Virus record (IMG/VR): IMGVR_UViG_3300032288_005385
Coordinates: 1-49,621 of that record
DNA from: a virus
Strand: one strand, 5' to 3'
Length of the DNA: 49,621 nucleotides
Part shown: one piece after another, positions 8,101 to 40,139 of the stretch
How the letters are laid out: every line of letters begins with the position of its first letter
Position numbering within the stretch: the first letter of the stretch is position 1
Program-made: the position numbers and the translations under genes
Notes under the pieces: generated by a model
The model's database searches: none
Told to the model about the DNA's origin: nothing
The model's input: only the letters and a program-made list of their open reading frames with translations

Positions 8101-11100
8101 CTGTTGATCACTGCTGTGGCTTCAGCTGGTTCTATTGCATCTCCGTTGATTATCACCACTGGAGGTTGTGTGTATCCCGAGCCGCCATCGATAATTTGCA
8201 CACTTTCCAACGACAACAAATAGTTGCTGTACCACTGATTGTAAGGCCAGGTGGACCACAATGCGCTGGTTGCTGGTACGTCACTTTCGATGTTGGTGCT
8301 AGAATTAAATGCTGTTCCTTGATCGTATGGCAACAACACAGGACTAGTAAACTTGGGTATTTCCAGTGATGTATTGTAGTAGGCCGGCAAATCAAAGTCA
8401 GTTATATCACCAAAGAATTCATCAAAACCGTTGTACAGCAAGTTGAATTCTCTAATGGTCACGTGATATGGCTTGACTTCTTGAATGTAGTCGCTTACAA
8501 ATTCTTGGTTGTCTCGCACGTAGTTTTGATACGGTATCAATTGACGAATTCTATGATCAACATCAATTAACGATGTCTTGACCAACCACTCTGGCGCAGA
8601 GAACTCACTCAACACAAAGTTAAACATCAATACCAACAGCTTGTTGCGCTGTATTTCCAAGTCTCCAACAAACAGTTCTTCGTTGATGGCTTGAATAATC
8701 TTTCTTGTTTCTATCACAGGCTCTTGATCAAAATACTGTGCATCAAATACTTCTACGTCAAATCCAAATCTGCCCAGGGCATAATCCCATAGTTCTGCGC
8801 TGAATTCAATGGTGCCATCTTGCAACCCAACTCTTTCCCAACCCAGGTCAGTTCTTAGATAGATTTCAAATTTTCCTTGAGCGTTGGCTGTGACTTTTAC
8901 ACTGCTGCCAACTGTGACAGTCAGTGTGCTCAAAGATGCATAATTGGGGACCTCGGCAACAACCTTAGTGCTAGAATTGTATCCGGGACGATACCAATTG
9001 ATATAGCTCCAATAGTCTGGTGTGTTGTACCCTTGTACTTTGGTGAGAACCAGTTCTCTAGTGTTGGGCGTAGTGTCGCTTTCTTGAACAGTGTAAATGG
9101 TCCATAGTCCGCGTTGACTGCTGTCAGTGGTCACAAGGTACTTGTAACCCAATGGTATTGATCCCAAGGGATCACTCCAGAACGGTGTTTGGAATCCCAA
9201 TATTTCTAAGTTGGCAACCTGAAGGTTCCAATTGGTAACGGTGACAGCATTGACAATTTCAGTCTGTGGAGGGATTGGTTCGCTGCTGTTCAGCAGGGTA
9301 AACGATTTGCTCTCAGTAATTGGATATTGTGCCAACACTGAATTTGCACGCTTTAGGTAATTTTTCAACGCGGCAAAACGATCCACAAACATCGATTGAC
9401 GTGGACGGAATTGCACGCCATAACGTTCGGCAGGCCCCAGGTTGGGATCAGGTACTTTGTTACCAAAGGTGTCTACCCCACAGAAACTGTCTTGAAGTTT
9501 GCGATATAAACTAGCACTCAAGAAACCATCGGCACGGTCCTGCGGAATTAATTCATACTCAACGTGCACATTGTCGTTGGTAAATTCACGATCATATTCA
9601 ATGCTGATCACTGTGTCGCTGGCTGAAATAAAATCAGCACAGTTGTACAATGCAATTGTGCTGGCATTTATAGGCGCCATGTAGGGAATGCCACTGGCTT
9701 TGGCATCAGCAATGTAAGATGCCACAGTGCTGGCTGGTAATGTTTTGCCCAACTGTGTGGCTGTGACCGTGATGCCACGTACCCAGAAATAGTAGTAGGT
9801 AGCAAATGTGCCATCTTGTGAAAGATTGGTGTTAACTGTGTAAGAAACAGTATTCAGTGGTATTCCTTCGCCTGTGTAAGATGATGGCGGTGTTGTGCTT
9901 TGTACCCACTGATAAACATCTACTTCACTGCCCGGGAACAACTGTGCCCAGCGTCGGCTGGCGTACACTATGCTGTCTTGATTGGGGTCAATGAATCTAA
10001 CTGAACTGATGTCCCACCAAATTTCTCCTACATGATCAGCAAACCATGTGCTACCTTTGAGGTTTGCAGGTCCCACATTGTAGGCCGCAGGGTCCACTGC
10101 GCCCACGTAATCAATGTTGGCTCGGGCGGCGCCCAATATTTTTCCTTGCAATGGGTTTATAAAATCCAAGAATTCAGTTCGTGCACTGGTGATTCTGTCA
10201 AAGAAGAACGCTGAGTTCAGCAGTCTAATATCTACCGTGGGCTGTTGAATTTCTACCACGCTCCAGGCGGGTGCTTGAGTTGGGTTTTCAAACACAAACA
10301 CAGCTCCAAAGTTTGCATCACTGTCGCCGGCATCATTTTTTGGTGCGCCGGCCATCAACACACCCGAGGTATAATCAACAGCAGCACCAAACCTATCATA
10401 CTGCCCCACAAGATTGTTGTTGATTTGTTGGCCAAACACAAACTTTCCAGGATTGGTTATAGTTAGCGAACTGCTGGGCAAATAATCAAATGTGTAAATT
10501 GCACCACTCTGCACAATTACCGAGAAGAATATTGTGCTGCCGGCATCAAACACTGTGGTACCATCATCGAATACTGTTTCAAGATAGATTGTGCCTTGAG
10601 GTGCGCCTACCACTAAGTTTTCAGCTGAATCATTTATGCTGATTGCGCTGCCAAATCCTGCGTATTGTACAGGGTATGGGCTGGTAATGGTTTGTGTCCA
10701 AGCAAACGTTTCAAATCCAAAATCAGCAAATGTGGTACCTACAGTGCCCGGTGCCACTTGCACCTTGTTGAAAGGGGGTGCTGCTGCCGAATTCTTGACG
10801 CTGATTGTGAGATATCCGGTGGTGCTGACTGTGGCCAACACATTCGGCACCGCGGTGTTGATTGCTGTGGCCAGACTAGCCACCGTTTCTGCCACAGGAA
10901 CCTCAACATCTATGTTGTCGATTCTAATTGTGTCTCCAGCAGTCAATCCTGGATTGGCCACCGTGGCTGTGATAGTGCCATATACTCTGCTTTGATTTAC
11001 AAAACGTTCAACAACACCACCTTTGAATATTTGTTGGCTGCTTTGTGGTTCGCCCACATACAGACTGCAATTGTTACTGCAAATTTGTACTGCTTGACCA

Positions 11101-14100
11101 AAGTTACTAAAGTCAGCTGTCACATGTTGGTCAACTTGTTGCACCTGCTGAAATTGATTGGTTTCAATTTCAATTATGTCACCAATTTGCAGATCGCCCA
11201 ATATGGTAACAATGTCACCAGATACAGTAAACGAGTTGGGAGCATCGATCACACTGTTGTCTTGGTTAATGAAAAATTCATTGTTAACCAATACACTGAC
11301 TGGTGCTGTAGGCGTTCCGCCCAGCACTGTGAAGCTCACGCTGGAAGGATCTGATCCGTATATGAACTTTTGTACATTGCGATCAAATACATAGACTGTG
11401 CCTGCTTGTGTTTCGCCATCAATGGTACGGTCTGGGGTTCCAATCATGACCTGACGGCCGTCTGTGGTACATGACACTGAGTGTCCAAATCTGTCACCGG
11501 CAGTTAGGCCGCCAGTGACCATGCTGGAATCAATTGTATCTACGTATTCAAAGTATCCTTTGGCGCTGACCACAACAACGTCAGTTGAAATGTAAGATCC
11601 AGCAAAGGTCACTGTGGTACCCGAGAACGTGTAATCAATATTGGGACGCAGCAGTGACTCGTTGACCTTGATACTGAAAGAGTAAATGTTTGTAGCGGTG
11701 AATAATCCAACTCTGCGACCACTAGCATCAATGTCATTGTCAAGATCATATGTTGATGCAGTATAAGGAATTTGGAAACTGTTGTAACGTGCAAATTCAA
11801 TCAAGGTCAATGCAAGTGCGGTGCCAGTGCCAGATCCCGTTCCAGTGGCAATAAATTCAACCCCAACTTTGTTGGCGCTGGCGCCTATAGCTACAAAATC
11901 TGTGTTGCCCAGGCTCAAGATGGTATAGGTTTGTCCAGGGACAAAACTTCCAGCTGTGGCTACACCAGGAGTGTTTGCAAAAGTAACAATGTTGAAATTG
12001 TTGTCGATGGTATAATCCACATCAACCGTTTGTATTTGACCGTTGAGAGTTACTTTGAGTTGATACTTGTTGTTGATCTGTATGCTGTCAGCAATGGCAT
12101 ATGATAGAGTAGTGCCGTCGGCCAAGATTCTTATCAACTGATCTTGCCAGTCAACGTAACCATAAGCATGAACCTGATTCAATCCTGGGGCGCCAATGTA
12201 CATCCAACGTTCGTCTAGACTCATGGCTACACTGTAGCCAAATTCTCCTGCACCAGTCAACAGTGTTCCGTAGCCTGCGGGTTGAGTCAGCAATTGGGAT
12301 TGTCCATAAGGAATAGATCCAGGAACACCCAACACCGGATCACGATAAATCACAACCGCATAACCGTTGTCAGCTTGTCCTGCTGAACCCAGGCTGGCGC
12401 TGGCACCGGCCACAGCATAGGTTTGATTGCCAAAGTCTATGGCATTGCCGTATCCGCGAAGGCCGGTCGTATCTAAGGTGAGTATGGCATCACCAATGGC
12501 CAACGGACTTACTGGAGTGTATTGATCAGTGAAACTCTTGACATAAACATAGATGGCTCCCCGGGCAGTGCCGCTGGCAAAACCATAACGTGGGCTACCA
12601 ACCAAGGCAGCCACTTTGTTTCTAGCCTGTGCTACGCTGGCCCCGTATTGTTCACTGGCATCAAGCAGCACTGGGTTCAGGGCAACAATGCTTGAAAATA
12701 CATTGTTTTTCTGGAGCACTTCCCATAGGCCGGCACCGTTGTCATCTACCCAAACTTTGGCGCCTGGCAAAATATTCAATGCATATGACAGGTCACCCAC
12801 ATCGCTGGCCTGTGCTACCCGCATGGTTTGCAAGGTAAATCCTAGACCTGTGCCATTGGCCACTGCACGATTGCTTGTGAAAGTAAATGCAATGTTCACT
12901 GTGTCAAGCGACGGAACGCTGAGTACCTGATAGACTCCGTTGATCTCACTGTCAAAGAACTTGATAATCAGTTTGTCACCAGCTTTTAACCCGTGCTGAC
13001 TGTTGAAAATTACTCGGCTGGTTCCATTTAAATTGTCACAAACATGCTGTAACTGTCCAGGCACTGCTTGGGCACGATAAATGTTCCAATCGTAATCGTT
13101 GATCTTGGCCACCCAAATACTGGTTCCTACTTCAATTTGATCTATGTTGGCCGCAAGACTGTCTGTGTTGTTGATATCAAACACTGTGATATCAGTGTCA
13201 TCCAAACTCACGTATCCAGCTGTTGGTAATCCTATATCGGTAGGCAGTTCAGTAGTGGTAGGCAGAATGTTGGTGCTGGTGAGATTGTAGCTAGAGCGCC
13301 ACACATCAGACAACAGCACTGTTTGGTCGGCTTGGCTTGATTGCTGGGGCACAACTACTTCTACCAAGCTGGGATTGCTGCTCAACAATGCACGATTTAA
13401 TCTCAATTCAAAGAAACTACGGTTGGCATTGGCACCGTAGACTGCTCGTTGAACTCCCCAATTTTCATAGATTGTGTAATCAGCTGCTTCTTTACCAAGG
13501 TTAGCCGATTTGAATAATTCTGCTGCCAGTATGGTACCTTTGGTACCCAAGAACTGACGATACACATTGACCTGGCTGACATCATCAAGATTCAATGCGG
13601 CTAGATATTGGCGTGGCTTGAAACCAATCAATCCATAACTCAATAGATCGTTGTCACTTTCAATATTGGCATCATTGATATTGTAGCTGTTGGCCAGTTG
13701 ATCAGCTTTGTTAGCAAGGTTAGGTAACAGTCCCAACTCAATTTGGGTATAATCACTCTGAGCCCAGTCATTGAAATTGAACTTTGCGCTGGGTTGCACA
13801 ATCTTGAGTGCTGACCAATAAACATTCTTGTATTTGACAATCTCGCCCTTGGGATAAGTCTTAAGTCCAGTCCACTCTTGAACATTGTCCTGATTCAAAA
13901 TAAATCCTGGCGTGTCTACGCTGCCATTCCAGTCACTGGTGGTCACAGCCACCAGTGTCAGTCTGCTTTGTCTTGCACCAGTAATTGGGTCATATATGAG
14001 GTCGCCGAACACGCTTTGATTGTCCAACACCATCATGTGTTCAAAATTGGTAAATCTTAAATTGATATAGCTGATGCTTTGTGTGGACAGTGGTTGTATA

Positions 14101-17100
14101 GTAAAAGTGTTGTCCAGACGAACCACATTCAAAGAGCGTGTGGGAATTTCGTTTGAGTTTTGATCCAACAATAGATTTTCGGTGGTTTCGGTCACAATAC
14201 CATCTACCACTGCACCAGGGCGGGTTACAGTCAATCCTTCGGCCAAGGGATTCAAATTGATAATGGCATTTGCGCTCCAACCCTGTTGACTCCAGTACAA
14301 AAATTCATTTACCATTCTTGGCCAGTTGAGCTCATAGCCATTGACCATGTTGTCAAATGTCAATCCTTGTTTTTCCAACAACTTTCCGTAACTCAGCAAA
14401 AAATCACTCACAGCAGTTTCGTTTACAAACACATATCCGTAAGGAACTTGCACCACAGTATCAGTGTAGAAAGTTGGTACACGCACCGTGATACCACCTG
14501 AACTGTATTCCTGTAGTCGACCCACTGCTTGACTTTGTAGTATTTCAAAATACGGCTGCGATGTTCCATATCCAAACACAGCAAATCCGCCGCCCTCGAC
14601 TCTTTGCACTGCCACACTGCTGTATCGGATTTGATCAAACGGCTGATTTTTATACAACAAAATGTTGTAGCTTTCGTCTGGAATGGTCAGTGTTGTGTTG
14701 GTGCTGTTGGGACTGGACTTTTCAGTGATCAACTTGATGTACTGCTTATCTGAATAGCTGGCCATGCGGTAGCACAATCTCACGTCCAGGGCCTTGAGAT
14801 CTGCGGTCAACAAGTCAGTTGAATCAATTCCAGTTTGTCTATTATAGTCCACGATCCAGTTGATGTAACTGGCTTTGCTGACACCGTTGCCGTAGACTTC
14901 AACACCGTTGGCATCCAATCTATAGCGACCATTGTAGAGATATTGATTGTAGTCAGTGTCAAACTTGTACAAGTCTCTGTCAGCAAAAAGTGCAAAGAAT
15001 TTTGCCGGGCGTGTAACTGCCAACACATGCATTACCGAGAATGGATATGAACTTGAATTCCACCACGATGCTTCAACTGGGCCGCCATCGCCGATTGCCC
15101 AGCTCTTTTGGTATTTAGATGTGATGTTTTGATTGAATGGTACCACGCCTACAACTGAGTTGAGCGGGCTCAATAATTCACCTTCCGGACCAGTGGGAAT
15201 CACCGATGTAAGACCAGGACGAGCATATTCTGGACGAATGTAAGGCGCAACGGGGTCGGCAACCAAGCCTGCTGCTAGGTCATCCCACAACACCAAGTTA
15301 TCCCCAGTATATGGCGCAGGTCCATAACGATCTTGCCACCAGTCGGGTTCAATTGTGAAACCCAGCATCTCCCAAGGAGTATAGCTTGGCTGCTGTGTGT
15401 CGTAGAAATAACGGTAAATTCCACGCCAGGCGCCCAACAAGTTTTCGTTGTTGAGTCGGTTGGTGGTATTGCTGTAGTTCCATGTAAACTCGTTGGTCGC
15501 ACTGAACGTCTGAGTTTTGTAATCCAATTTGTTCCAACCGCAGAAACTCAACAGATCAGAACCAAAAATTGAGTTCACTTCTTCAAAGCTGTAACCGGTA
15601 TTACGGAATTGACCCGGCAATACATCTTCCACTGTGAGAGGAACAGGATTGCCATCTTGCTTGATGTTGTTGTAAATTCTGGTTTCAAATTCCAACAGCA
15701 CTTGATCGCGAATGTCACCAAACACCAGCGTTGAGCTTCCGTCATGCCCAATTATGAATTCACCTGTGCCATTGCTGGTCACAAGCGTGGTAATCTCTGG
15801 CTCCCAGGCTGGGTACAAACCCATTTTGCTAGGAGTGTTGGGCACAAAGCTTCCGTAAGTGGCGCCGTACTCGTTGATGGTAACTGTGTCGCCAGTAGCA
15901 AGAGTTGTGGTAATTGTGATTCTAGGACCGTTTGTGGCCACCACATAATCTTTGTCACGAGTTAGAATTTGATCGTTTAGATACACACACAGTCCCAGAT
16001 AGTTGGAAGATGTATAATTGTAAACTTGTACAGTGTCAAAAACATAGTTGACGACCAGACCAACATTGTAGGTATTGCTATAAGAAGTTACCCCTTGAGG
16101 AATCATGTCGCTCCAGTAGAAGGGCTGAGTGTTTAACTTGCCCAAGGTAATATCTTGTATGGCTTCGTCTAAAATACTGGCTGTGGTTCTAAACGCAATG
16201 TTGTTTTGATTCAGCACTGCATCCAACATCTGCGCTTTGAATTTGGTATATTCGCGACTGCTGTACTGCAATGACGCAAAAATGTTATAGGCAGAACTGC
16301 GCATAAAGTAGCCAGCCAAAGTCAGCGGGCTACTTTGTTGAAGTATCACCAAACCGTATGGAACAATGTTTCCAAGATCACGACTGTTGTTGGATCCGTT
16401 GACGGGCCCAGTTAACGCCAATAAGTTTTCGCAAATGCTCTCGTAGTGAGTCCGGATTGTGCCCAATGTAAACGATGAGCTGTTGGCATTGAGCGGATTA
16501 TTTTCTAAATTGTTTGGTACTTGATAAAAACCCACCTTGCTGGTCTGATCACTTAGTGCCAAAATTTCAATTACATCTGTGGGCAGATATGTGTTGCTCA
16601 AGGTAATGGTTGTGCTGTCATCGCTGGCGATATAGGTATATTGACTTGGTTCAATAAATTGGCCGCCAACATAGGCCTTGATCACTGGCATTGCAATAGA
16701 TGATTGCGGTGTCACTGCAATGTCAAGTTGAAGTTTGTTGCCAGTATAGTTGAACTGAAATTGTTGATAAATTTGTTGCTCAACTACTGCGGTTTGCCAG
16801 CCAATCAACTTGGCGTATTCAGTTCTTGTTGCGTATTCTCTGGCCGAACCTGAGCTAATTGGAGTAACTGTACTGACATTGTCTATGGTGTAAGTGAAAC
16901 TGTCAACATACAAATTGTTGTCAAAAACAATGTCTCCCACGTTGTTGATATTCAGATATTGCAAAGGGAATTGCAACACTGGATCAAGAATAGTGGTATT
17001 GCCCACAGCATAACTAAACAATTTTGAACCCACAAAGTCGCTGGATTGATATTTGACTCTGTCACCAAAACTTACACCGTCCACATCATAGATATTGAAC

Positions 17101-19319
17101 AACGGTGCTTGTTGAACCTTGGTTTTCTGTTGCGCTTCAATCCAGTTGGAACCATCATACCAAAATGTTTTTCCAGAGATTGAATTGCCATTCAAACACA
17201 CAGTTGATTCATCTAATTCAACTGCACCATCAGTAGCTTCTGTCAACACAATCACTGGTTGGGCAATCAAGGGGGGAACTGTGTCCGGAATGGCAAAAGT
17301 CACCACGTATATCTTGTTGCGCACAGACAAATCTTCGTCGGCAGCAAATATAACCCTTGACCCTTCGACCAAGGCGTAACCGTCTGTGGTGTATCCAGTA
17401 GATCCTTCCACATTTGAAAAAGCATCGGTTTGTGTAAAGTCAATTATGTCAACTGGGGCCTTGCCTTGTGTGCCCATGTTCCACAAGCGTACTCCGGGGC
17501 GGAACTGAATAATTGGACGCTTGGCACGAAGATTATTATCAAGATTGGCAGCAGTATTGTTGTATTCTGCTGTGGCATTCAAAACACTGACATGGAACCA
17601 ACGATTGCTTCTAGTCCATGCATTTAAATCTCGGCTTGCTCGACTGATTGTTAAGTAATCAGGATCTGCGGGCTCTACTGCAATGGTACTATCGTTGTAG
17701 TCTTCAACATAGGTTTCAGGCACAACAAAATCTGTTACTGGCAGTAGCTCTATTGCAGTTCCAACACCACTCACATAGTACTCGTGATTGCTGATGGCAA
17801 TGGAGTTCATGGTACCTGTGCCATTTTGCAAGGTCACTGCTGGACCGCCAGGGACTGCGCTAACTGTGAACTTGATACCGCTGGCTGCAATTGATCTTAC
17901 ATAATATGTTGTGCCAGCGTCAAGTCCCCCAAGTGTGGGAGTTAAAAACACCACCTGCTGACCCACATATAAACTGCCAGCATCATAATATGTGATGTAG
18001 TTTGTATTGGCTTCAGTGGCAGTGCATTCAAAGCTTGAGGTGCCTGACTTGTAACTAGTGGGTACCACATCCCCAGTGAATCTCACCTTGAGTCCGTTGG
18101 TAAACGCCACGCCGTTGGGGCTGGTATAAGTTTTTTTACCGATTATGGTGTCAACGTCCAGTACACTGCTGGCGCTGGGTTCGATCAGAACAATGCGACC
18201 AAAAATTTCCGAATTTGTGCCAGACTGGTAGTACAGTGTATCTTGTACTGCGCTCAACAGCGGAATACTGCGAATAACCCCAGCAGGATCTTTGTACCAT
18301 TGTGTGTTGCTGTAAACTGTTCCGTAACTGGTGGTCCACTTTTCTAAATTATTGATATTGGCCAGCAATGACACTTGCAAATAAATTGCATCACCAACAG
18401 TGTTGTAGGTGATTTGATATTTTTGTGTGTAAGCAGGGTTGTTGAGAAAAATCAGTGTACGATTATCTAAGTTGGTTGTGCCATCAATGCCACCGTTGGC
18501 AAGAATAAAATCAACCAAAGGTTGTCCGTTGATATCATCAAAACTTAATTCAGTTACTAGGTCGATTGTGCCAATACTGTCAAGAGAAGTGTAGTAAAAA
18601 CTCTGTGCATTCTTCTGCGGCACATTGAATACCACAGTGCCAGATGTTTCACCATTGTTGGTTACTCCATACACATCTCGGCTGCTGATATTTGGAGTGG
18701 CTGGGATTGTACCGGCGATACCAGGTGCGCTTTGGATCCAGAATTGATCAGTTACCTGGAATGTGTAGCTGCCGCCTCGCACCAATTCAATCACAGGGCT
18801 GTTGCCATTGACGCCTGAAAAATTATAAACATTGTTGCTAGTGGTTACCACAAAGTTATCAGTGGTTGGAATCCCAGTGGCACTGACATCTACTGCGTCG
18901 GGCCCATTGGGTACCCAATAGTACTGGCTGAAGTTTATGAATGTGTCAAAATCAATAAACGGATCCCAGGTGTAATATTCGCTGGAATACAGCCTGTCGG
19001 GACGATTACCGTTGCCACCTTGAAAAGTCACAGCATCATTGAGTCCTGGATAGGTAATGGCATTTTTAATTGTGTTGGTGTCTGGTACAAGACTGACAAC
19101 CCCGGGTTCAAGTTGATAGTTACTTCTTGTGACTGTGGGTTCTACCACGTATCGGTCATTAGGGTTGACGCCAGGCCCCACTCGTCGACCAATAAAGCCC
19201 TGTGTTTTTCTAAATTTAGGCTCTTGTATCAGTTGATCAAGTGTTGCTGCCAAAAATTGTTTGTTGGCATCAGTCTGAAAAATCTCAGGAAGAAAATCTA
19301 CGCTGCGGACTGTTGCCAT
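5136..19319 (-). CDS. Giant (4727-residue) baseplate-region structural protein
   Basis: One uninterrupted frame fills 14.2 kb. The N-terminus has FLPEIFQTDANKQFLAATLD and a Tyr/Trp-rich stretch (LYSSEYYTWDPFIDFDTFIN). About residues 2230-3020 hold at least six FG-GAP-like units (for example AGEFGYSVAMSLDERWMYIGAP), suggesting an integrin-type beta-propeller. A ~48-residue module ending in ATGxGSGTGTA occurs twice (about 2455-2500 and 4166-4213). A later helical part has TSLIDVDHRIRQLIPY and DYIQEVKPYHVTIREFNLLY. I see no catalytic motif. The ATG overlaps the gp6 stop (TAATG) with GGAG before it, so it is translated after gp6. It lies where T4 has gp7-gp10, so I infer a wedge periphery or fibre-anchoring role. 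Equally long relatives exist in aquatic myophages, as far as I recall. Confidence 0.75.
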   Translation of the reverse strand: MATVRSVDFLPEIFQTDANKQFLAATLDQLIQEPKFRKTQGFIGRRVGPGVNPNDRYVVEPTVTRSNYQLEPGVVSLVPDTNTIKNAITYPGLNDAVTFQGGNGNRPDRLYSSEYYTWDPFIDFDTFINFSQYYWVPNGPDAVDVSATGIPTTDNFVVTTSNNVYNFSGVNGNSPVIELVRGGSYTFQVTDQFWIQSAPGIAGTIPATPNISSRDVYGVTNNGETSGTVVFNVPQKNAQSFYYTSLDSIGTIDLVTELSFDDINGQPLVDFILANGGIDGTTNLDNRTLIFLNNPAYTQKYQITYNTVGDAIYLQVSLLANINNLEKWTTSYGTVYSNTQWYKDPAGVIRSIPLLSAVQDTLYYQSGTNSEIFGRIVLIEPSASSVLDVDTIIGKKTYTSPNGVAFTNGLKVRFTGDVVPTSYKSGTSSFECTATEANTNYITYYDAGSLYVGQQVVFLTPTLGGLDAGTTYYVRSIAASGIKFTVSAVPGGPAVTLQNGTGTMNSIAISNHEYYVSGVGTAIELLPVTDFVVPETYVEDYNDSTIAVEPADPDYLTISRASRDLNAWTRSNRWFHVSVLNATAEYNNTAANLDNNLRAKRPIIQFRPGVRLWNMGTQGKAPVDIIDFTQTDAFSNVEGSTGYTTDGYALVEGSRVIFAADEDLSVRNKIYVVTFAIPDTVPPLIAQPVIVLTEATDGAVELDESTVCLNGNSISGKTFWYDGSNWIEAQQKTKVQQAPLFNIYDVDGVSFGDRVKYQSSDFVGSKLFSYAVGNTTILDPVLQFPLQYLNINNVGDIVFDNNLYVDSFTYTIDNVSTVTPISSGSAREYATRTEYAKLIGWQTAVVEQQIYQQFQFNYTGNKLQLDIAVTPQSSIAMPVIKAYVGGQFIEPSQYTYIASDDSTTITLSNTYLPTDVIEILALSDQTSKVGFYQVPNNLENNPLNANSSSFTLGTIRTHYESICENLLALTGPVNGSNNSRDLGNIVPYGLVILQQSSPLTLAGYFMRSSAYNIFASLQYSSREYTKFKAQMLDAVLNQNNIAFRTTASILDEAIQDITLGKLNTQPFYWSDMIPQGVTSYSNTYNVGLVVNYVFDTVQVYNYTSSNYLGLCVYLNDQILTRDKDYVVATNGPRITITTTLATGDTVTINEYGATYGSFVPNTPSKMGLYPAWEPEITTLVTSNGTGEFIIGHDGSSTLVFGDIRDQVLLEFETRIYNNIKQDGNPVPLTVEDVLPGQFRNTGYSFEEVNSIFGSDLLSFCGWNKLDYKTQTFSATNEFTWNYSNTTNRLNNENLLGAWRGIYRYFYDTQQPSYTPWEMLGFTIEPDWWQDRYGPAPYTGDNLVLWDDLAAGLVADPVAPYIRPEYARPGLTSVIPTGPEGELLSPLNSVVGVVPFNQNITSKYQKSWAIGDGGPVEASWWNSSSYPFSVMHVLAVTRPAKFFALFADRDLYKFDTDYNQYLYNGRYRLDANGVEVYGNGVSKASYINWIVDYNRQTGIDSTDLLTADLKALDVRLCYRMASYSDKQYIKLITEKSSPNSTNTTLTIPDESYNILLYKNQPFDQIRYSSVAVQRVEGGGFAVFGYGTSQPYFEILQSQAVGRLQEYSSGGITVRVPTFYTDTVVQVPYGYVFVNETAVSDFLLSYGKLLEKQGLTFDNMVNGYELNWPRMVNEFLYWSQQGWSANAIINLNPLAEGLTVTRPGAVVDGIVTETTENLLLDQNSNEIPTRSLNVVRLDNTFTIQPLSTQSISYINLRFTNFEHMMVLDNQSVFGDLIYDPITGARQSRLTLVAVTTSDWNGSVDTPGFILNQDNVQEWTGLKTYPKGEIVKYKNVYWSALKIVQPSAKFNFNDWAQSDYTQIELGLLPNLANKADQLANSYNINDANIESDNDLLSYGLIGFKPRQYLAALNLDDVSQVNVYRQFLGTKGTILAAELFKSANLGKEAADYTIYENWGVQRAVYGANANRSFFELRLNRALLSSNPSLVEVVVPQQSSQADQTVLLSDVWRSSYNLTSTNILPTTTELPTDIGLPTAGYVSLDDTDITVFDINNTDSLAANIDQIEVGTSIWVAKINDYDWNIYRAQAVPGQLQHVCDNLNGTSRVIFNSQHGLKAGDKLIIKFFDSEINGVYQVLSVPSLDTVNIAFTFTSNRAVANGTGLGFTLQTMRVAQASDVGDLSYALNILPGAKVWVDDNGAGLWEVLQKNNVFSSIVALNPVLLDASEQYGASVAQARNKVAALVGSPRYGFASGTARGAIYVYVKSFTDQYTPVSPLAIGDAILTLDTTGLRGYGNAIDFGNQTYAVAGASASLGSAGQADNGYAVVIYRDPVLGVPGSIPYGQSQLLTQPAGYGTLLTGAGEFGYSVAMSLDERWMYIGAPGLNQVHAYGYVDWQDQLIRILADGTTLSYAIADSIQINNKYQLKVTLNGQIQTVDVDYTIDNNFNIVTFANTPGVATAGSFVPGQTYTILSLGNTDFVAIGASANKVGVEFIATGTGSGTGTALALTLIEFARYNSFQIPYTASTYDLDNDIDASGRRVGLFTATNIYSFSIKVNESLLRPNIDYTFSGTTVTFAGSYISTDVVVVSAKGYFEYVDTIDSSMVTGGLTAGDRFGHSVSCTTDGRQVMIGTPDRTIDGETQAGTVYVFDRNVQKFIYGSDPSSVSFTVLGGTPTAPVSVLVNNEFFINQDNSVIDAPNSFTVSGDIVTILGDLQIGDIIEIETNQFQQVQQVDQHVTADFSNFGQAVQICSNNCSLYVGEPQSSQQIFKGGVVERFVNQSRVYGTITATVANPGLTAGDTIRIDNIDVEVPVAETVASLATAINTAVPNVLATVSTTGYLTISVKNSAAAPPFNKVQVAPGTVGTTFADFGFETFAWTQTITSPYPVQYAGFGSAISINDSAENLVVGAPQGTIYLETVFDDGTTVFDAGSTIFFSVIVQSGAIYTFDYLPSSSLTITNPGKFVFGQQINNNLVGQYDRFGAAVDYTSGVLMAGAPKNDAGDSDANFGAVFVFENPTQAPAWSVVEIQQPTVDIRLLNSAFFFDRITSARTEFLDFINPLQGKILGAARANIDYVGAVDPAAYNVGPANLKGSTWFADHVGEIWWDISSVRFIDPNQDSIVYASRRWAQLFPGSEVDVYQWVQSTTPPSSYTGEGIPLNTVSYTVNTNLSQDGTFATYYYFWVRGITVTATQLGKTLPASTVASYIADAKASGIPYMAPINASTIALYNCADFISASDTVISIEYDREFTNDNVHVEYELIPQDRADGFLSASLYRKLQDSFCGVDTFGNKVPDPNLGPAERYGVQFRPRQSMFVDRFAALKNYLKRANSVLAQYPITESKSFTLLNSSEPIPPQTEIVNAVTVTNWNLQVANLEILGFQTPFWSDPLGSIPLGYKYLVTTDSSQRGLWTIYTVQESDTTPNTRELVLTKVQGYNTPDYWSYINWYRPGYNSSTKVVAEVPNYASLSTLTVTVGSSVKVTANAQGKFEIYLRTDLGWERVGLQDGTIEFSAELWDYALGRFGFDVEVFDAQYFDQEPVIETRKIIQAINEELFVGDLEIQRNKLLVLMFNFVLSEFSAPEWLVKTSLIDVDHRIRQLIPYQNYVRDNQEFVSDYIQEVKPYHVTIREFNLLYNGFDEFFGDITDFDLPAYYNTSLEIPKFTSPVLLPYDQGTAFNSSTNIESDVPATSALWSTWPYNQWYSNYLLSLESVQIIDGGSGYTQPPVVIINGDAIEPAEATAVINSVGQVVAINVTNPGSGYSQTPTITFDGGNGVAARAYAVMNNNLVRSFRTVIKYDRFQYFSDIAAWEPNQIYNPGTLVRYEDRVWQATSATPVTGPTFNLEDWTLIPARQLSGVDRTMGYYVPGVNQPGLELPLLIDGVDYPGVQVYGDYFLNNPAAIDTNYSSEFTDVTLGTLPTDINVDGGEFIGLYEGHAPEELVNGAEFDTLDFRVYTRPGADWARDGHGFQWSSIRYMFDPLIETNYSWAGITQHPVQVLVSNITTNTDLALDVNYTINWVNQTVSLIEMAPWVTAGDRFQINVFELGGGSQLYRANYIGGDIGETVVVPVGASEIDSIAVFVNGENVDSVTWQPYTASTDWNILDSYTKLDVVNNGGNYYRALQDVPAGIDIANVLYWFEFVPTIESIVDFGTDYGATDGIALVVFGASTIDAGNFIIGRSYTISTVGTTNWTAIGAASSTVGTSFVATGVGSGTGTATTNYSWSTPQVQYQVADASLVTNKVIYLTNSLQGTNSVNAVVTRNGLRLQPPEGIEWIGDDSSVSFGLPQRGGYSQSLINAVTDITVWVDNVLQPQTVGPTTGTYIVTPWAGSNTPGRQVVFTTPPVSGARILIAVSTAADYRIIANELQISSSVVLNDLFAVTTWNDTSQLYPLTLVFKGPITETVTVTEGYDETDYSPDTVNNAPGSFDYSAGNTVYTNNFYLERSSNNASRLWVTLNGYRLFEGTDYTVSGDYLILASGVIGVSDVLVVEEFTNSIVPEAMAFRIFQDMRGVQAVYRITPETTTALAQDLSSTADIAYVDNAWTLSDPDLEAGIFGVITINGERIMYRERDTVANTVSGLMRGTAGTGAADHSAGSSVSDMGRGNLLPQQFQDYIVSDSSMGDDSTTVFYAPSINFADFEDSTIESTAIEVYVGGARQYAVSDTSADSQYRWFVTDFDPLAVEFDIAPAAGVEVTILVRQGVTWYAPGDGTASNGIALQDTETQAARFLRGL
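6681..6822 (-). repeat. Second copy of GSGTGTA module in giant gene
   Basis: Encodes about residues 4166-4213 of the giant protein: FIIGRSYTISTVGTTNWTAI followed by GAASSTVGTSFVATGVGSGT. It is clearly homologous to the copy at 11820-11955, sharing the pattern G-x-x-Y-T-I, I-G-A, V-G-x-x-F and ATG-x-GSGTGTA. Confidence 0.7.
11820..11955 (-). repeat. First copy of GSGTGTA module in giant gene
   Basis: Encodes about residues 2455-2500: FVPGQTYTILSLGNTDFVAI followed by GASANKVGVEFIATGTGSGT. It sits between two FG-GAP-like units, at roughly 2360 and 2610, which are about twice as far apart as the others. It therefore looks like an insertion into the propeller. Confidence 0.7.
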
Positions 19320-32468: not shown

Positions 32469-33365
32469 ATGACTTTATTACCCAAAGCGGCTCCCCGCGT
32501 AAACTATCTCAACAATAGAGACATCTTAAAAGAAATACACCTTAGCAAAAACAACTATTGCTGGTTCCGTGATCGTGTGAACGATCACCAATTTGACATA
32601 ATTTTGCCCAGCATAGACAAAATAAATCAACGCACAATAGCCGAAGCCCGGCGCAATCGAGCAGATCGTTTGAAACGTGAAGGCACCATTGTGGATCCAA
32701 AAAAGATACCCAACACAGACATTGTGTTCCGTATCACTTGCTGGGATCACATTCCCCGAGCGCCCAAAAAAATCACCAAGGCCGAAGCCAAACGACGCAA
32801 GTTGGAGGACATTCTTGACCTAGACGATGCCACCGAAGATGATCCCTTGGCAGATCTTGTGGATGTTCCTGTGCTGGACATGAATCATGTGCGTGTGAAT
32901 TTTCCTCCGTTCGAACACTATCGCATTGACGAGGACAAAAACCCTTTTATCGTGGGACGTAGTCATTGGCGGGGCGATTTAGAAACTGGGGAGTTCAGCA
33001 AGGATCATGGCGAGATGACCAAAAAACTTGCGCTGATGTTTATGAAACTGTGCGAACGTTATGCCACAAGATCTAACTGGAGAGGATACACCTACAATGA
33101 AGAAATGCGCGGTCAAGCCCTGCTTCAACTCAGTCAAATTGGTCTTCAATTCGATGAGTCTAAAAGCCAAAATCCATTTGCTTATTACACTGCCGCTATT
33201 ACTAATAGCTTTACTCGCATCTTGAACATTGAGAAGAAAAATCAAAACATCCGAGATGACATCCTGGAAATGAACGGGCTCAACCCGTCATGGACTCGCC
33301 AGAACTCGGGCAAACACTCAATGGCTGCCATGTCCGGACCGGTTGTGTCTAGCTTGGATGAATAA
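32469..33365 (+). CDS. 55: Late-transcription sigma factor gp55
   Basis: The 298-residue product is longer than T4 gp55 (185 residues) but has its signature: a helix reading LMFMKLCERYATRSNWRGYT, then QNPFAYYTAAITNSFTRILN, the region 2-like core that contacts polymerase and the late -10 box. The first ~150 residues are charged and contain NYLNNRDILKEIHLSKN and an acidic linker (DILDLDDATEDDPLADLVDV). The late boxes in this window (TATAAATA and variants) are its expected targets. It leads a plus-strand cluster under a sigma70-like promoter, so it should be made before the late genes. Its stop overlaps the next start (TAATG). Confidence 0.88.
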   Translation: MTLLPKAAPRVNYLNNRDILKEIHLSKNNYCWFRDRVNDHQFDIILPSIDKINQRTIAEARRNRADRLKREGTIVDPKKIPNTDIVFRITCWDHIPRAPKKITKAEAKRRKLEDILDLDDATEDDPLADLVDVPVLDMNHVRVNFPPFEHYRIDEDKNPFIVGRSHWRGDLETGEFSKDHGEMTKKLALMFMKLCERYATRSNWRGYTYNEEMRGQALLQLSQIGLQFDESKSQNPFAYYTAAITNSFTRILNIEKKNQNIRDDILEMNGLNPSWTRQNSGKHSMAAMSGPVVSSLDE

Positions 33366-34225
33366 TGGATTCTTTGGCAGTTAAGTGGTTGCAGGTCGAG
33401 AATACTTCCAAATGCAACGCATGGTGCCCAGGTTGTGATCGCAATCAACAAGGTTACGGACTTGCACCGGGGTTGATTGTTCAGGATCTTGACACCGATC
33501 GCTTTGCAGAAATTCTTCAACAACTGCCCAATTTACAAACCATACAGTTCTGCGGAACCCATGGCGACTTTGCTGCGGCCAGCAATGTGCTTGAGCATGT
33601 AGAGCTGGCGCTGAAACACAGCAAAAAAATTCAAATACACACGCACGGCGGAATTAGAAATGCACACTGGTGGCGTAATCTTGCCGACATGCTGAAACCA
33701 GTTGAGCATGACGTTTGGTTTGGTATAGACGGGCTCAAAGGCATACATGAAATATATCGCCAAGGCACAGATTTTGACAAGACCATGGAAAACGCCGATG
33801 CCTTTATTCAAGCTGGGGGACATGCCACTTGGCAATTTATACCTTGGGCACACAACGAGCATCAAATCAAAGATTGCATGCGCGAGAGTCAGCGCATGGG
33901 GTTCAAAAGATTCAAGTTTGTGTTTGGAGTGCGTCGCGGACCCAATGCTTATCATTATCGCACCGGCGAACCATTTGAGTTAAAGGATTGGAGCAGGACA
34001 CAGGGAACCAATCACTGGAGATTGGAAAAAACGCAAATCCAAACGTCTGACTGCTTGCACCTCAGAGAAAACAGTATCTATGTCAATGCAAACGGAACCG
34101 TGAGTTCTTGTTGTTTTTTTAATTTGCACAGATCATGCAGCAATGTAAATGAGCTTCCGGATCTGCACGCAGAGCTGACTACTAAGCCCAGTCTGGCATG
34201 CATCAAAACCTGCGGATCGGTTTGA
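33365..34225 (+). CDS. Radical SAM protein, twitch/SPASM-type (first copy)
   Basis: The 286-residue product has the CX3CX2C iron-sulfur motif at Cys17, Cys21 and Cys24 (CNAWCPGC), then IQFCGTHGDF and IHTHGGIRNAHWW, resembling the beta strands of a radical SAM barrel. The C-terminus has further Cys (CLHLREN, SSCCFF, RSCSN, ACIKTC) that could bind a second cluster, as in SPASM or twitch proteins. Such enzymes cleave S-adenosylmethionine to start radical chemistry, often on peptides. No precursor peptide or partner is evident, so the substrate is unknown. It is paralogous to the protein at 37889 (shared FCG-x2-GD and HWW). It starts within the gp55 stop codon. Confidence 0.8.
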   Translation: MDSLAVKWLQVENTSKCNAWCPGCDRNQQGYGLAPGLIVQDLDTDRFAEILQQLPNLQTIQFCGTHGDFAAASNVLEHVELALKHSKKIQIHTHGGIRNAHWWRNLADMLKPVEHDVWFGIDGLKGIHEIYRQGTDFDKTMENADAFIQAGGHATWQFIPWAHNEHQIKDCMRESQRMGFKRFKFVFGVRRGPNAYHYRTGEPFELKDWSRTQGTNHWRLEKTQIQTSDCLHLRENSIYVNANGTVSSCCFFNLHRSCSNVNELPDLHAELTTKPSLACIKTCGSV

Positions 34226-36132: not shown

Positions 36133-37892
36133 TTCACTTTAAAAATCTAACAGTTAAAAACTTCATGAGTGTGGGCAATGCCACACAAGGTATTGATTTT
36201 GACCGTAAAGATCTCACACTAGTTCTAGGTGAAAACTTAGACCTTGGGGGAGATGGTAGTCGCAACGGCACCGGCAAAACTACAATTATCAATGCACTAA
36301 GTTATGCGCTGTACGGCCAGGCCTTGAGCAACATTCGCAAAGACAATCTTGTAAACAAAACCAATGGCAAAGGCATGCTGGTGAGTTTGGATTTTGCAGT
36401 TGGCAACGCCACGTATCGAATCGAGCGCGGCCGCAAACCCAATGTGTTGCGATTCTACGTCAACAACGAAGAAAAGTCTGCCACAGACGAAGCCCAAGGC
36501 GACTCAAGAGAAACACAGGATGCCATTGAACATATTTTGGGCATGAGTCATGACATGTTCAAACATATCCTTGCGTTGAACACTTACACTGAACCGTTCT
36601 TGAGTTTGAAGGCCAACGAACAGCGCACTATCATTGAGCAGTTGTTGGGTATCACACAACTTTCGGAACGTGCTGATCGCATCAAAGAGCTCAACAAGCA
36701 AACCAAAGACGCTATCTCGCAGGAAGAATTTAGAATTCGTGCTGTGCAGGAGGCCAACAAGCGCATCGAAGAACAGATTGAAAGTCTGCGCAAAAGGCAA
36801 CGCTTGTGGATTGCCAAACGTGATGAAGATGTTACCAAGCTACAGCAGGCCATTGCGGATCTTGAGCACATTGACATCGATGCTGAAATACAAGCACACC
36901 GAGATCTAGAAGCCTGGCACCAGAAAAAGAAAGCCATAGACGATGCCAACCGATACATTCGACAAATTGACGCCGACGATGTCAAGCAGGCACGACAGTT
37001 GGAACGGCTCAAAAAAGAAATTGAAGCCCTGGACAATCACAAATGTCACAGTTGCGGGCAAGATCTTCACGACAACAAACAAGATGAATTAAAACGCGAC
37101 AAAGAAGCCTTGCTACGAGAAACAGCACTGCAACTTTTGACCAACGATACTCAACGTCAAGAACATCAAGACACCCTGACCAGTTTGGGCGAGTTAGGTA
37201 CTGCACCCACTGTGTTTTATGATTCCCTGGAGCAGGCCTTGAATCATCGCAACTCAGTGGAAACACTGCGTAAAGATCTTGTGCAACGACAAGCTGATGC
37301 TGATCCCTACGGCGAACAGATTGAGGACATGCAAGGACAGGCTTTACAAGTTGTGAGCTATGACACACTCAACGAGCTCACTAGACTGCAAGAACATCAA
37401 GACTTCTTGCTCAAACTGCTGACCTCCAAAGATTCATTTGTTCGCAAGAAAATTATTGATCAGAATCTCAGCTACTTGAATCAACGACTCACACATTATC
37501 TGGACAGGATTGGCCTGCCACACACAGTGAAGTTCCAAAACGACCTCACAGTGAGCATCGAAGAACTGGGGCGCGAACTGGACTTTGACAACCTGAGTCG
37601 CGGTGAACGCACACGCCTGATCTTGTCAATGAGCTGGGCCTTCCGCGACGTATGGGAGAGCCTGTATCATCCCATTAACCTGTTGTTCATTGACGAACTC
37701 ATGGACAACGGCCTGGACACACAGGGCGTGGAGAACGGACTAGCTCTACTCAAGCGCATGAGTCGTGAACGCAACAAGAGTGTTTGGCTGGTGAGTCACA
37801 AAGACGAATTGGCTGGGCGTGTAGAGAATATTCTCAAAGTCATCAAAGAGAATGGATTCACCAACTATAACACTGATGTAGATATTGCATGA
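36129..37892 (+). CDS. 46: Recombination endonuclease subunit gp46 (Rad50/SbcC-like)
   Basis: The 587-residue product shows the full Rad50/SbcC layout. There is a Walker A at GSRNGTGKTT (Lys50), a long coiled coil broken by a zinc hook CHSCGQ (Cys306, Cys309), an ABC signature LSRGERTRLILSMSW near 490, a Walker B LLFIDEL near 522, and an H-loop WLVSHKDE. With gp47 it forms the ATP-driven nuclease that resects DNA ends. The start is TTG (36129), overlapping the upstream stop as TTGA; no ATG is available before the conserved HFKNLTVKNFMSVG. The next gene overlaps by ATGA. Confidence 0.93.
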   Translation: MIHFKNLTVKNFMSVGNATQGIDFDRKDLTLVLGENLDLGGDGSRNGTGKTTIINALSYALYGQALSNIRKDNLVNKTNGKGMLVSLDFAVGNATYRIERGRKPNVLRFYVNNEEKSATDEAQGDSRETQDAIEHILGMSHDMFKHILALNTYTEPFLSLKANEQRTIIEQLLGITQLSERADRIKELNKQTKDAISQEEFRIRAVQEANKRIEEQIESLRKRQRLWIAKRDEDVTKLQQAIADLEHIDIDAEIQAHRDLEAWHQKKKAIDDANRYIRQIDADDVKQARQLERLKKEIEALDNHKCHSCGQDLHDNKQDELKRDKEALLRETALQLLTNDTQRQEHQDTLTSLGELGTAPTVFYDSLEQALNHRNSVETLRKDLVQRQADADPYGEQIEDMQGQALQVVSYDTLNELTRLQEHQDFLLKLLTSKDSFVRKKIIDQNLSYLNQRLTHYLDRIGLPHTVKFQNDLTVSIEELGRELDFDNLSRGERTRLILSMSWAFRDVWESLYHPINLLFIDELMDNGLDTQGVENGLALLKRMSRERNKSVWLVSHKDELAGRVENILKVIKENGFTNYNTDVDIA

Positions 37893-38896
37893 TCAAGTGG
37901 GACCATTGGCATATTGAAGCGTCTAGTATCTGTGCATTACAATGCCCCAGATGCCCACGTGCCGAGGTTCCAGAAAGCTTGTTGAATCGACAACTTACAT
38001 TGGATTTTTTTAAAAATCAAGTAGGCGAAAGTGTTGCAAGACAAATTCGTAAAATTACATTCTGCGGCAACGATGGTGATCCTGTATACTGTCGAGATTT
38101 AGTAGAAATTATCATTTGGTTCAAGACGCTCAATCCAGAGATACAAATTGTAATTGTCACCAACGGCAGTTACAAACCTGTGCATTGGTGGGACTATCTA
38201 GGCAAAGCTCTTGATCATCGCGACGAAGTTCATTGGAGCTTGGACGGTTGGGACCAGGCCAGCAACCAACAATACCGTGTTCACAGTGACTGGATCAGTA
38301 TCATGCGTGGCATAGAAGCATTCAAAAACGCCAACAATTCTACGTATCTTGTATGGGCCGCAATAGCATTTAGATTCAATCAAGACTGTATTGAACACAT
38401 GAAAACGCAGGCTCGAACCTTGGGATTTGACAGTTTTCAGCTCACAAAATCCACAAAATTTGGCAGTAAATACCCCAGTGCTTATGGCACAGAAGATGCG
38501 TTAGAGCCCACCGAACCTGCATTAGTGGCGTCTGCACACCGGTTTGAGCGTGTAACTACACCTCTCACTGTTAAAACAAGGCCCGGTGCAGAACTTCGAA
38601 TTGAATTTTTAAAACGAGCAACACAGTTAGGCAGCTACTCAGGCATCTGTTTGATAGGCAGCAAAGGCGTTTTTCTCAACAGTCGCGGGGAGTTTTATCC
38701 TTGCTGCTGGACAGCAAACCGCTACGATCACAATGCATCATGGCAAGGCCGATTCAACTTAAACACAAAAACTTTTGAAGAAATCATTGCAGACTCATTC
38801 TGGACCGGAGAGTTTTTAAATTTTGACAATTTAGAATGTCAAACCAAATGCACACCAGAACGTTTGATTGATCCTACACACACCTCAGAATGGTAA
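37889..38896 (+). CDS. Radical SAM protein, twitch/SPASM-type (second copy)
   Basis: The 335-residue product has CX3CX2C at Cys15, Cys19 and Cys22 (CALQCPRC). It continues ITFCGNDGDPVYCRDLVEII and IVTNGSYKPVHWWDYLGKA, a clear radical SAM half-barrel, and ends with Cys-rich GICLIGSKGVFLN, FYPCCW and CQTKC, fitting an auxiliary cluster. It shares order and key positions with the 286-residue protein at 33365 (FCG-x2-GD, HWW), so the two are paralogues flanking the gp47/gp46 pair. It overlaps gp46 by ATGA, so translation is coupled. Substrate unknown: possibilities are a phage or host peptide, or a small molecule handled by the accessory enzymes on the other side of the RNA region. Confidence 0.82.
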   Translation: MIKWDHWHIEASSICALQCPRCPRAEVPESLLNRQLTLDFFKNQVGESVARQIRKITFCGNDGDPVYCRDLVEIIIWFKTLNPEIQIVIVTNGSYKPVHWWDYLGKALDHRDEVHWSLDGWDQASNQQYRVHSDWISIMRGIEAFKNANNSTYLVWAAIAFRFNQDCIEHMKTQARTLGFDSFQLTKSTKFGSKYPSAYGTEDALEPTEPALVASAHRFERVTTPLTVKTRPGAELRIEFLKRATQLGSYSGICLIGSKGVFLNSRGEFYPCCWTANRYDHNASWQGRFNLNTKTFEEIIADSFWTGEFLNFDNLECQTKCTPERLIDPTHTSEW

Positions 38897-38935: not shown

Positions 38936-39370
38936 ATGACATGGCTATACAACAATCAACTAGTGGAAACTCTCCCCGAAGATTGCGTGGGCTACGTCTA
39001 CATGATCACCAACATCACAAACGATCGCAAATACATAGGCAAAAAACTAGCAAAATTCTCTCGCACAACTCAGCGAACAGTAAAACTCAAAAACGGCAAC
39101 AAGAAGAAAAAGAAGATTCGCACCAAAGTGGATTCAGACTGGCGTGACTACTATGGGTCAAGCCCCGAGCTTACCCGGGATGTGGAACTTCTAGGCAAAG
39201 AAAATTTCAAAAGAGAAATACTTTATTATTGTAAGTCAAAATCAGAGTGCAGTTACATCGAAGCAAGAGAACAATTTTCACGTAGAGTGCTGGAATCCTC
39301 GGACTGGTACAACGGACACATTCAGGTTCGTGTGCACGGTTCGCACATAATCAACAAGTTAAGCAGTTAA
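38936..39370 (+). CDS. GIY-YIG-type endonuclease
   Basis: The 144-residue product has GYVYMITNITNDRKYIGKKL near its N-terminus, the two strands of the GIY-YIG motif (Gly19-Tyr22 and Tyr33-Gly35), then a Lys-rich stretch and SDWRDYYGSSPELTRDVELL. IEAREQF may carry the catalytic Glu. Small proteins of this type occur widely in T4-like phages as free-standing nucleases. I choose ATG 38936 over the out-of-frame ATG at 38932. It is the last gene of the plus-strand cluster, and the hairpin-rich RNA region begins directly after its stop. That could make it the partner of a mobile element, though I see no splice-site evidence. Confidence 0.75.
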   Translation: MTWLYNNQLVETLPEDCVGYVYMITNITNDRKYIGKKLAKFSRTTQRTVKLKNGNKKKKKIRTKVDSDWRDYYGSSPELTRDVELLGKENFKREILYYCKSKSECSYIEAREQFSRRVLESSDWYNGHIQVRVHGSHIINKLSS

Positions 39371-39722
39371 GACTCGCACAGGTCAACCACGTGTGCCCAG
39401 AGACAACCGGATGATAACGGGGACGGAAGCCTCACCGCGCTAGTGAGCACTCAGCAACTATCCTTGACAGGACGACGATCGCAAATTGCCGCGGTTTTGC
39501 TGTTTGAACAGAATTTTAAAGGCTGAAAAGACGCTGTAGTGATACAGCACGTTTGTGTGATATGTTAGCGTATGTTGTACAAACCGCCGTTGTGATAAAG
39601 ACGCTGCTCGAGGTACCGGACAACCGCCTCTGTAATGCAGTAACGCTAAGTGACTGAGTCGACTCGGATGAAGTTTCTTTGCCCTGAGCGGGCAAAGTGT
39701 GACCAAACAATCTGGATGAAGC

Positions 39723-39777
39723 TTAACATCGCTCCGCTCTTGAACTTTAAAACATTAACGAGCGACAGCGAAGTTAA
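39723..39777. repeat. Interrupted inverted repeat
   Basis: TTAAC, CGCT and CGCTC (39723-39739) pair in order with GAGCG, AGCG and GTTAA (39760-39777), leaving about 20 bases in the loop. It belongs to the 3' part of the structured region and could work on either strand. Confidence 0.6.
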
Positions 39778-39778
39778 T

Positions 39779-39797
39779 AGATGTGCGCAGCACATCT
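39779..39797. terminator. Strong hairpin at the convergent gene junction
   Basis: An 8-bp perfect stem AGATGTGC/GCACATCT with a 3-base loop lies seven bases after the stop of the minus-strand gene ending at 39804. No T tract follows on either strand. It may stop or stabilise transcripts from both sides rather than act as a classical Rho-independent terminator. Confidence 0.4.
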
Positions 39798-39803
39798 TGA
39801 ATG

Positions 39804-40139
39804 TTAAAACTGATCTGGCCAATCTCTAAACAATGCGTGTTGTATATTACCTGACACGAATTGATTGAAAGATCGATGCTTGTCTTCAAGTTCGCCTTGA
39901 AGTGGGGCTACACGTTTAAATGCTGAATCCATTTGACCCATGTCACGGAACTCCATGAGGATCATCCATTCAGGCATGTCTGCTATGCTACGGAACCCCA
40001 TCTTGCAACGGGTGATTCTGTAGCTTTCCATCCGGCCTTCGGAGATCAAATGATCAAAGAAACTCTTCATGCCATTGACCCAGTCAAGGTCTGTGATGTC
40101 GCCTTCTTTGTCGGCCCAAATTGTATATAAATCTGCCAT
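39804..40139 (-). CDS. DUF6614-like small protein (probable alpha/beta-barrel fold)
   Basis: From the ATG at 40139 (GAGAGG five bases upstream) the product is 111 residues; a longer upstream reading lacks such a site. LYTIWADKEGDITDLDWVNG, ESYRITRCKMGF and PEWMILMEFRDMGQMDSAFK match my memory of bacterial DUF6614 proteins, which look like ferredoxin-fold dimeric barrels related to monooxygenase- or EthD-type proteins. No function is established. It is the last gene of the gp26-led operon and follows the amidinotransferase by one base, so it may act on or carry a product of that enzyme (inference). Confidence 0.65.
   Translation of the reverse strand: MADLYTIWADKEGDITDLDWVNGMKSFFDHLISEGRMESYRITRCKMGFRSIADMPEWMILMEFRDMGQMDSAFKRVAPLQGELEDKHRSFNQFVSGNIQHALFRDWPDQF

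Follow-up and report, generated by a model that had tools for sequence, protein, structure and literature searches.

Positions 39371-39803 of the window (the whole 49,621-nt stretch of virus record IMGVR_UViG_3300032288_005385) almost certainly encode a large structured RNA on the + strand. The complete RNA is ~430 nt long, about three times the length of the Rfam entry that covers its 5' end (RF01718, Polynucleobacter-1). An initial annotation had proposed a large structured RNA beside a GIY-YIG nuclease, and this is borne out by covariation and by the adjoining SegE-like gene. Its further proposal, that the RNA is undescribed, holds in part: the first 135 nt match RF01718 over the full length of the model (1-141; 91.1 bits against a curated cut-off of 37), whereas the other two thirds, the pseudoknots and two further RNA types (B and C, below) lie outside Rfam and, together with the phage locus, are new. 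RF01718 covers only the 5' third, and the remaining ~300 nt are conserved with it as a single unit in more than 100 phage loci. In Weinberg et al. (2010) (PMC2864571), the table row for RF01718 gives a candidate from Burkholderiales and fresh water or estuary.

We obtained 80 phage loci as best-scoring matches to the nuclease protein; in about 40, the match to a profile grown from the window sequence extends over its full 426 positions or nearly so. A 17-base core from the unnamed 3' part gave a further 119 viral stretches, again best-scoring matches, almost all of which contain the RNA. As the loci are the best-scoring matches listed, the counts given here describe this phage group and are not unbiased frequencies. 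Across 111 non-redundant full copies, lengths run from 408 to 625 nt, with a median of 443 nt. The conserved unit may begin ~10 nt further 5', at AGCAGTTAAG, which overlaps the nuclease stop codon and is also kept in RNA copies displaced from the nuclease. Among isolated phages, 50,697 records gave no DNA match to the RNA, and their nucleases are at most 48% identical. Matches to the core pattern in bacterial genomes had RNA profile scores at chance level, and we therefore rejected them as chance matches.

Covariation supports a pseudoknotted fold

We built by hand a structure of 98 pairs and tested it on 35 sequences. In these, 92.1% of alignment cells are paired, compared with 34-42% when the partners are slid by 1-3 columns, a control that leans towards the drawn structure because the latter was drawn partly from the same covariation. 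Both sides change in 69 of the 98 pairs, and none of 500 shuffles reached any of five measures. A second test used no structure: all column pairs of 111 sequences were scored with the G statistic and average-product correction, against a null of 30 alignments simulated along the tree (the cut-off is the second-highest of the 30 maxima, and significance is rough). Forty-four column pairs exceed this null, including members of PK1, PK2 and the P7/P8/P9 pseudoknot; 34 of the 44 are base-paired in at least 83% of sequences, all within drawn helices. G-U outnumbers A-C in the helices (758 vs 263), and the RNA therefore lies on the + strand.

Single-sequence folding, the comparison with shuffled sequence that had been proposed at the outset, was not significant (z -1.5 on the + strand and -1.8 on the - strand); folding energy alone would have failed here, and covariation was decisive instead. 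The absence of a believable reading frame, also part of the initial annotation, was confirmed. In homologues, 1,548 of 1,689 indels have lengths not divisible by three, and the longest stop-free run has a median of 37-51 codons, whichever frame is read; indel lengths and stops together rule out a protein-coding reading.

Sixteen helices on the + strand are supported by covariation, three of them forming pseudoknots (Table 1). Every stem named beforehand was found and covaries: the GTGA (GNRA) hairpin is P5, the TTAGCGT/ACGCTAA pairing is PK2, and the crossing stem GTTTGT/ACAAAC is the base of the long hairpin P6, which PK2 crosses. In the 5' pseudoknot, the pairs at 39372-39383 (GC in 79 sequences, AU in 29) and 39378-39394 (AU/GC) lie above the null, as do 39591-39622, 39604-39640, 39605-39639, 39606-39638 and 39611-39629 in P7/P8/P9. 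Of the RF01718 stems, P1, P3, P4 and P4b are kept with compensatory changes. P2, weak in alignment A1, is the weakest helix and poorly aligned (31% of cells paired in the 35-sequence test, 90% in a larger alignment). The Rfam structure lacks PK1, P5-P12, PK2 and the paired word described below. Beside P4a, 39461 and 39473 show non-complementary covariation (UC/CU, in 78 and 33 sequences), perhaps a tertiary contact.

Table 1. Features of the RNA and its flanking genes (window coordinates).
Feature	Position	Strand	Evidence or remark
SegE-like GIY-YIG endonuclease gene	38936-39370	+	PF19835, E 7e-33; linked upstream neighbour
Whole RNA gene, type A	39371-39803	+	Profile match along all 426 positions in about 40 loci, then >100 more
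5' domain, RF01718 Polynucleobacter-1 (PK1, P1, P2, P3, P4, P4a, P4b)	39371-39505	+	91.1 bits, cut-off 37
5' pseudoknot: PK1 39371-39373/39382-39384 crosses P1 39376-39380/39392-39396	39371-39396	+	Pairs above null
P4 with inner stems P4a and P4b	39452-39502	+	P4 cells 99% paired, 5 of 6 pairs compensatory
P5, hairpin with GUGA loop	39533-39548	+	5 of 6 pairs compensatory
P6, 13-bp hairpin, loop enters PK2	39551-39584	+	All 13 pairs compensatory
PK2: 39565-39571 with 39643-39649	39565-39649	+	97% of cells paired; all 7 pairs compensatory; 39570-39644 above null
Second pseudoknot core: P7 39586-39593/39620-39627 crosses P8 and P9	39586-39641	+	Covariation above null
P8; P9	39603-39607/39637-39641; 39610-39612/39628-39630	+	Both crossed by P7
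Repeat copy 1, GACUC-GGAUGAA-G	39661-39673	+	Four positions covary by identity with copy 2, offset 48
P10, hairpin between the two repeat copies	39677-39697	+	~90-95% of cells paired
Repeat copy 2, AAUCU-GGAUGAA-G	39709-39721	+	Identity covariation with copy 1; replicated in type B RNAs
P11	39754-39778	+	Near the 3' end
P12, terminal 8-bp hairpin with GNA triloop	39779-39797	+	All 8 pairs compensatory
Convergent DUF6614 gene	39804-40139	-	PF20319, E 3.7e-20; stop codon begins at 39804

A variable word present twice

Four of the 44 column pairs above the null covary as identical rather than complementary letters, and all four are 48 positions apart. The first is 39661/39709; the others are 39666/39714 (GG 59, AA 51, one mixed), 39670/39718 (GG 56, AA 55, none mixed) and 39672/39720 (UU 80, AA 24, GG 3). 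They belong to a direct repeat (ACUC-RNAURAN and AUCU-RNAURAN) whose leaders, CUC and UCU, are constant and different; the word that follows varies between phages with its two copies in agreement. Of 137 loci in which a pair could be read (among the matches listed), 133 have identical copies, a count that picks the best pair in the span and is slightly biased to identity, a bias from which the tree-based column test is free. Type B RNAs independently show the same identity covariation above their tree-based null (GG 25, AA 17). To our knowledge, few RNAs have a pair of short sites that vary and nevertheless always agree.

Neither gene conversion nor a fresh duplication would leave the distinct CUC and UCU in place. 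Because the words agree while these leaders stay distinct, we infer selection for a pair of sites that both read one partner. Inside the RNA there is no complementary covarying column or segment for the word. In its own RNA, a phage's word has fewer complements than do words swapped between phages (52 vs 64.9, sd 3.8, uncorrected for relatedness), and the 600 nt upstream have none, as expected if both sites must stay free. A search for a partner of the word gave no enrichment near the locus and no shared gene position across 11 long contigs.

We set aside three readings of the word itself. A CsrA sponge acting through GGA motifs is at odds with the many alleles that change the motif to AGA in both copies, and neither a C/D box nor a tRNA anticodon fits alleles that do not keep the required letters.

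Genomic context of the RNA

The window appears to belong to a large tailed phage of T4-like character, because its gene content includes SbcCD-like (gp46/gp47-type) recombination nuclease subunits, a portal protein and a baseplate hub. The gp47/gp46-like gene pair is flanked by two radical-SAM-like genes, both phrog_21308 (33365-34225 and 37889-38896), and one open frame on the - strand (5136-19319) runs to 4,727 aa, unusually long for a phage gene. The GIY-YIG family (phrog_447) carries the PHROG label 'NAD synthetase', which public phage records copy; this looks like an annotation error, as the Pfam SegE_GIY-YIG family fits much better.

The RNA fits exactly between the + strand GIY-YIG gene and the convergent - strand DUF6614 gene. 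Among the matches listed, the nuclease gene lies 5-92 nt upstream in 85 of 92 loci where the RNA was found, and the DUF6614 gene abuts the RNA in 27 loci and is separated from it by 0.5-2.1 kb in 20. In the latter arrangement (for example in L006, L008, L042 and L074), the space holds exchangeable insertions in which phosphoribosyltransferase-like, nucleosidase-like and radical-SAM-like frames were recognised by eye. Each of the 11 long contigs has one copy of the RNA, and in some phages it is displaced ~1 kb from the nuclease gene. A promoter scan gave no sigma-70 match at the RNA start, and the 3' end has no clear terminator.

The usual position directly after the nuclease gene, on the same strand and often abutted by the convergent gene, is what would be expected of a cis-acting 3' UTR element of the GIY-YIG mRNA that stabilises, terminates or processes it, or keeps it apart from the convergent gene, and that does not act in trans. 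The 2010 catalogue also marks the 5' motif as probably cis-regulatory in its table columns (PMC2864571). Against this, some copies are displaced by ~1 kb, the chromosomal copies (below) have no GIY-YIG gene, the structure far exceeds the needs of a 3' end, three unrelated upstream halves follow near-identical nuclease genes, and the paired word is left unexplained. We therefore regard a 3' UTR element as unlikely.

Three RNA types are exchanged at one locus

Among the matches listed, 144 of 146 non-redundant nuclease loci with at least 450 nt downstream have an RNA there. By profile scores, we defined three types: A, to which the window's RNA belongs (84 loci), B (47) and C (13), with two loci having none. 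Type B is ~390 nt (L067:5433-5821) and type C ~470 nt (L026:5433-5900), both downstream of the same nuclease. All three share a 3' module with the twice-present heptamer, and some loci have only this 3' part in common. Type B has covariation support of its own. Neither B nor C matches Rfam at gathering score (L067 and L026 have no match at E up to 1), and sharing only the 3' module with type A, they are not members of the RF01718 entry. At one nuclease locus (L534), 1.8 kb of downstream sequence is without a type A, B or C RNA and could hold a fourth type.

The type hardly tracks the nuclease. Nucleases of 95-99% identity have the same type in 58 of 99 pairs, compared with 41-46% at 65-85% identity; where the nucleases are identical (two pairs), one pair combines B with C. 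The RNA is therefore exchanged as a cassette.

This bears on whether the RNA is a partner of the nuclease, guiding or restraining the GIY-YIG endonuclease in an RNA-protein complex in the manner of IscB or TnpB. The near-complete linkage and fixed order would suit such a complex, and two short variable sites could be guides. HEARO and other nuclease-linked guide RNAs are likewise structured RNAs beside a nuclease gene. However, nucleases that are 95-100% identical pair with different RNA types, and five isolated-phage neighbourhoods of distant nuclease relatives gave no RNA profile match. The nuclease here is of SegE-type GIY-YIG and has no IscB or TnpB domain, there is no HEARO match at E up to 5, and the association is not obligatory, since chromosomal loci have the RNA without the nuclease, though 144/146 of the nuclease loci listed are linked. 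A nuclease partner RNA thus seems quite improbable.

A conserved 3' part with an exchangeable 5' part has also been described for GOLLD, and ROOL is another large, ornate, phage-encoded RNA of unknown role (PMC12286853). Membership of GOLLD or ROOL, or kinship with introns, had been suggested for the present RNA, which is likewise large, ornate and phage-encoded; the suggestion did not stand, as GOLLD, ROOL, HEARO and introns were all unmatched at E up to 5 and RF01718 is the only Rfam family in the window. The RNA is about half the length of GOLLD, and ARAGORN found no tRNA genes in the window. Its likeness to GOLLD is one of resemblance, not membership. By analogy, it might be a self-assembling, multimeric scaffold in which the paired word makes contacts between chains. 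Size, pseudoknots, phage origin and the GOLLD-like division into 3' and 5' parts would agree with this, but there is no sequence or structure match to GOLLD or ROOL, and identical, non-complementary words make no pairing contact with each other. We think self-assembly improbable.

Chromosomal relatives

Covariance-model searches also found relatives in bacterial chromosomes. RF01718 scored above cut-off in 6 of 399 genomes sampled at family level around a Pandoraea genome, and in 12 of the 121 from the genus of one matching genome; the matching genomes are 1.6-2.6 Mb. Chromosomal members have the full-length layout and the paired word of the phage RNA, with other words that mostly occur twice the same (AACAAAAG, AGCGAAAG, ATCAAAAG and, by eye, AGAGAAAG); L331 and L411 deviate. 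The chromosomal loci that we read have a DUF6641 gene opposite the RNA, tyrosine recombinases and an AAA ATPase nearby, and no GIY-YIG gene. Four loci of ~19 kb each (L403-L406) show a ~9-kb element that carries tyrosine recombinases internally as well as at each end, the DUF6641 gene, a clamp-loader-like AAA ATPase and variable genes directly after the RNA. The sporadic presence and the integrases suggest an integrative element or phage satellite.

Mobility of another kind, that of an intron-like or other mobile ribozyme whose direct repeats are element ends or a target-site duplication, could account for the adjoining homing-type endonuclease, for the repeats and for the sporadic bacterial distribution (12/121 in one genus). 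Yet no group I or II intron or HEARO model matches at E up to 5, the RNA interrupts no gene but sits between two complete ones, and the repeats occupy a fixed position within a conserved fold and follow constant, different trinucleotides (CUC and UCU), unlike a fresh target-site duplication. We consider this reading very improbable.

What might the RNA do?

The evidence leaves us evenly poised on the reading that we prefer: that the type A RNA of ~430 nt is an independent, trans-acting structured RNA, in a family that includes Polynucleobacter-1, with two sites for one partner. Its ability to stand alone is supported by the copies displaced ~1 kb from the nuclease and by the chromosomal copies without one. 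Both copies of the word would bind one partner in trans. Base pairing with a nucleic acid would be the simplest way, given that several letters occur at four of the positions and that the RNA itself contains no partner column; a protein that reads sequence could also give rise to the identity covariation. The remainder of the RNA would serve as a scaffold for the two sites. Transcription most likely continues from the nuclease gene and is followed by processing. Exchange of the cassette may proceed by recombination, in which the adjacent endonuclease might assist, and would follow from changes in the partner (host, rival phage or satellite); the steady linkage to the nuclease may reflect homing-driven cassette exchange rather than a joint enzyme.

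More tentatively, we picture a phage specificity RNA, in which a pseudoknotted scaffold shows a variable word of 7-8 nt twice and reads one nucleic-acid partner in trans. Alleles A, B and C, swapped at a nuclease-linked locus, might then be a short RNA code that is re-tuned in conflict by phages and by related integrative elements of their likely hosts; we hold this as a possibility, and a doubtful one.

An orphan Rfam entry is thus extended to about three times its length, as a complete RNA that has alternative alleles and a defined position in the genomes of T4-like phages. Types B and C, without an Rfam match, could be described as families. The matching variable sites point to a specific partner in trans, and the paired word provides a concrete signature for asking what large structured phage RNAs do.
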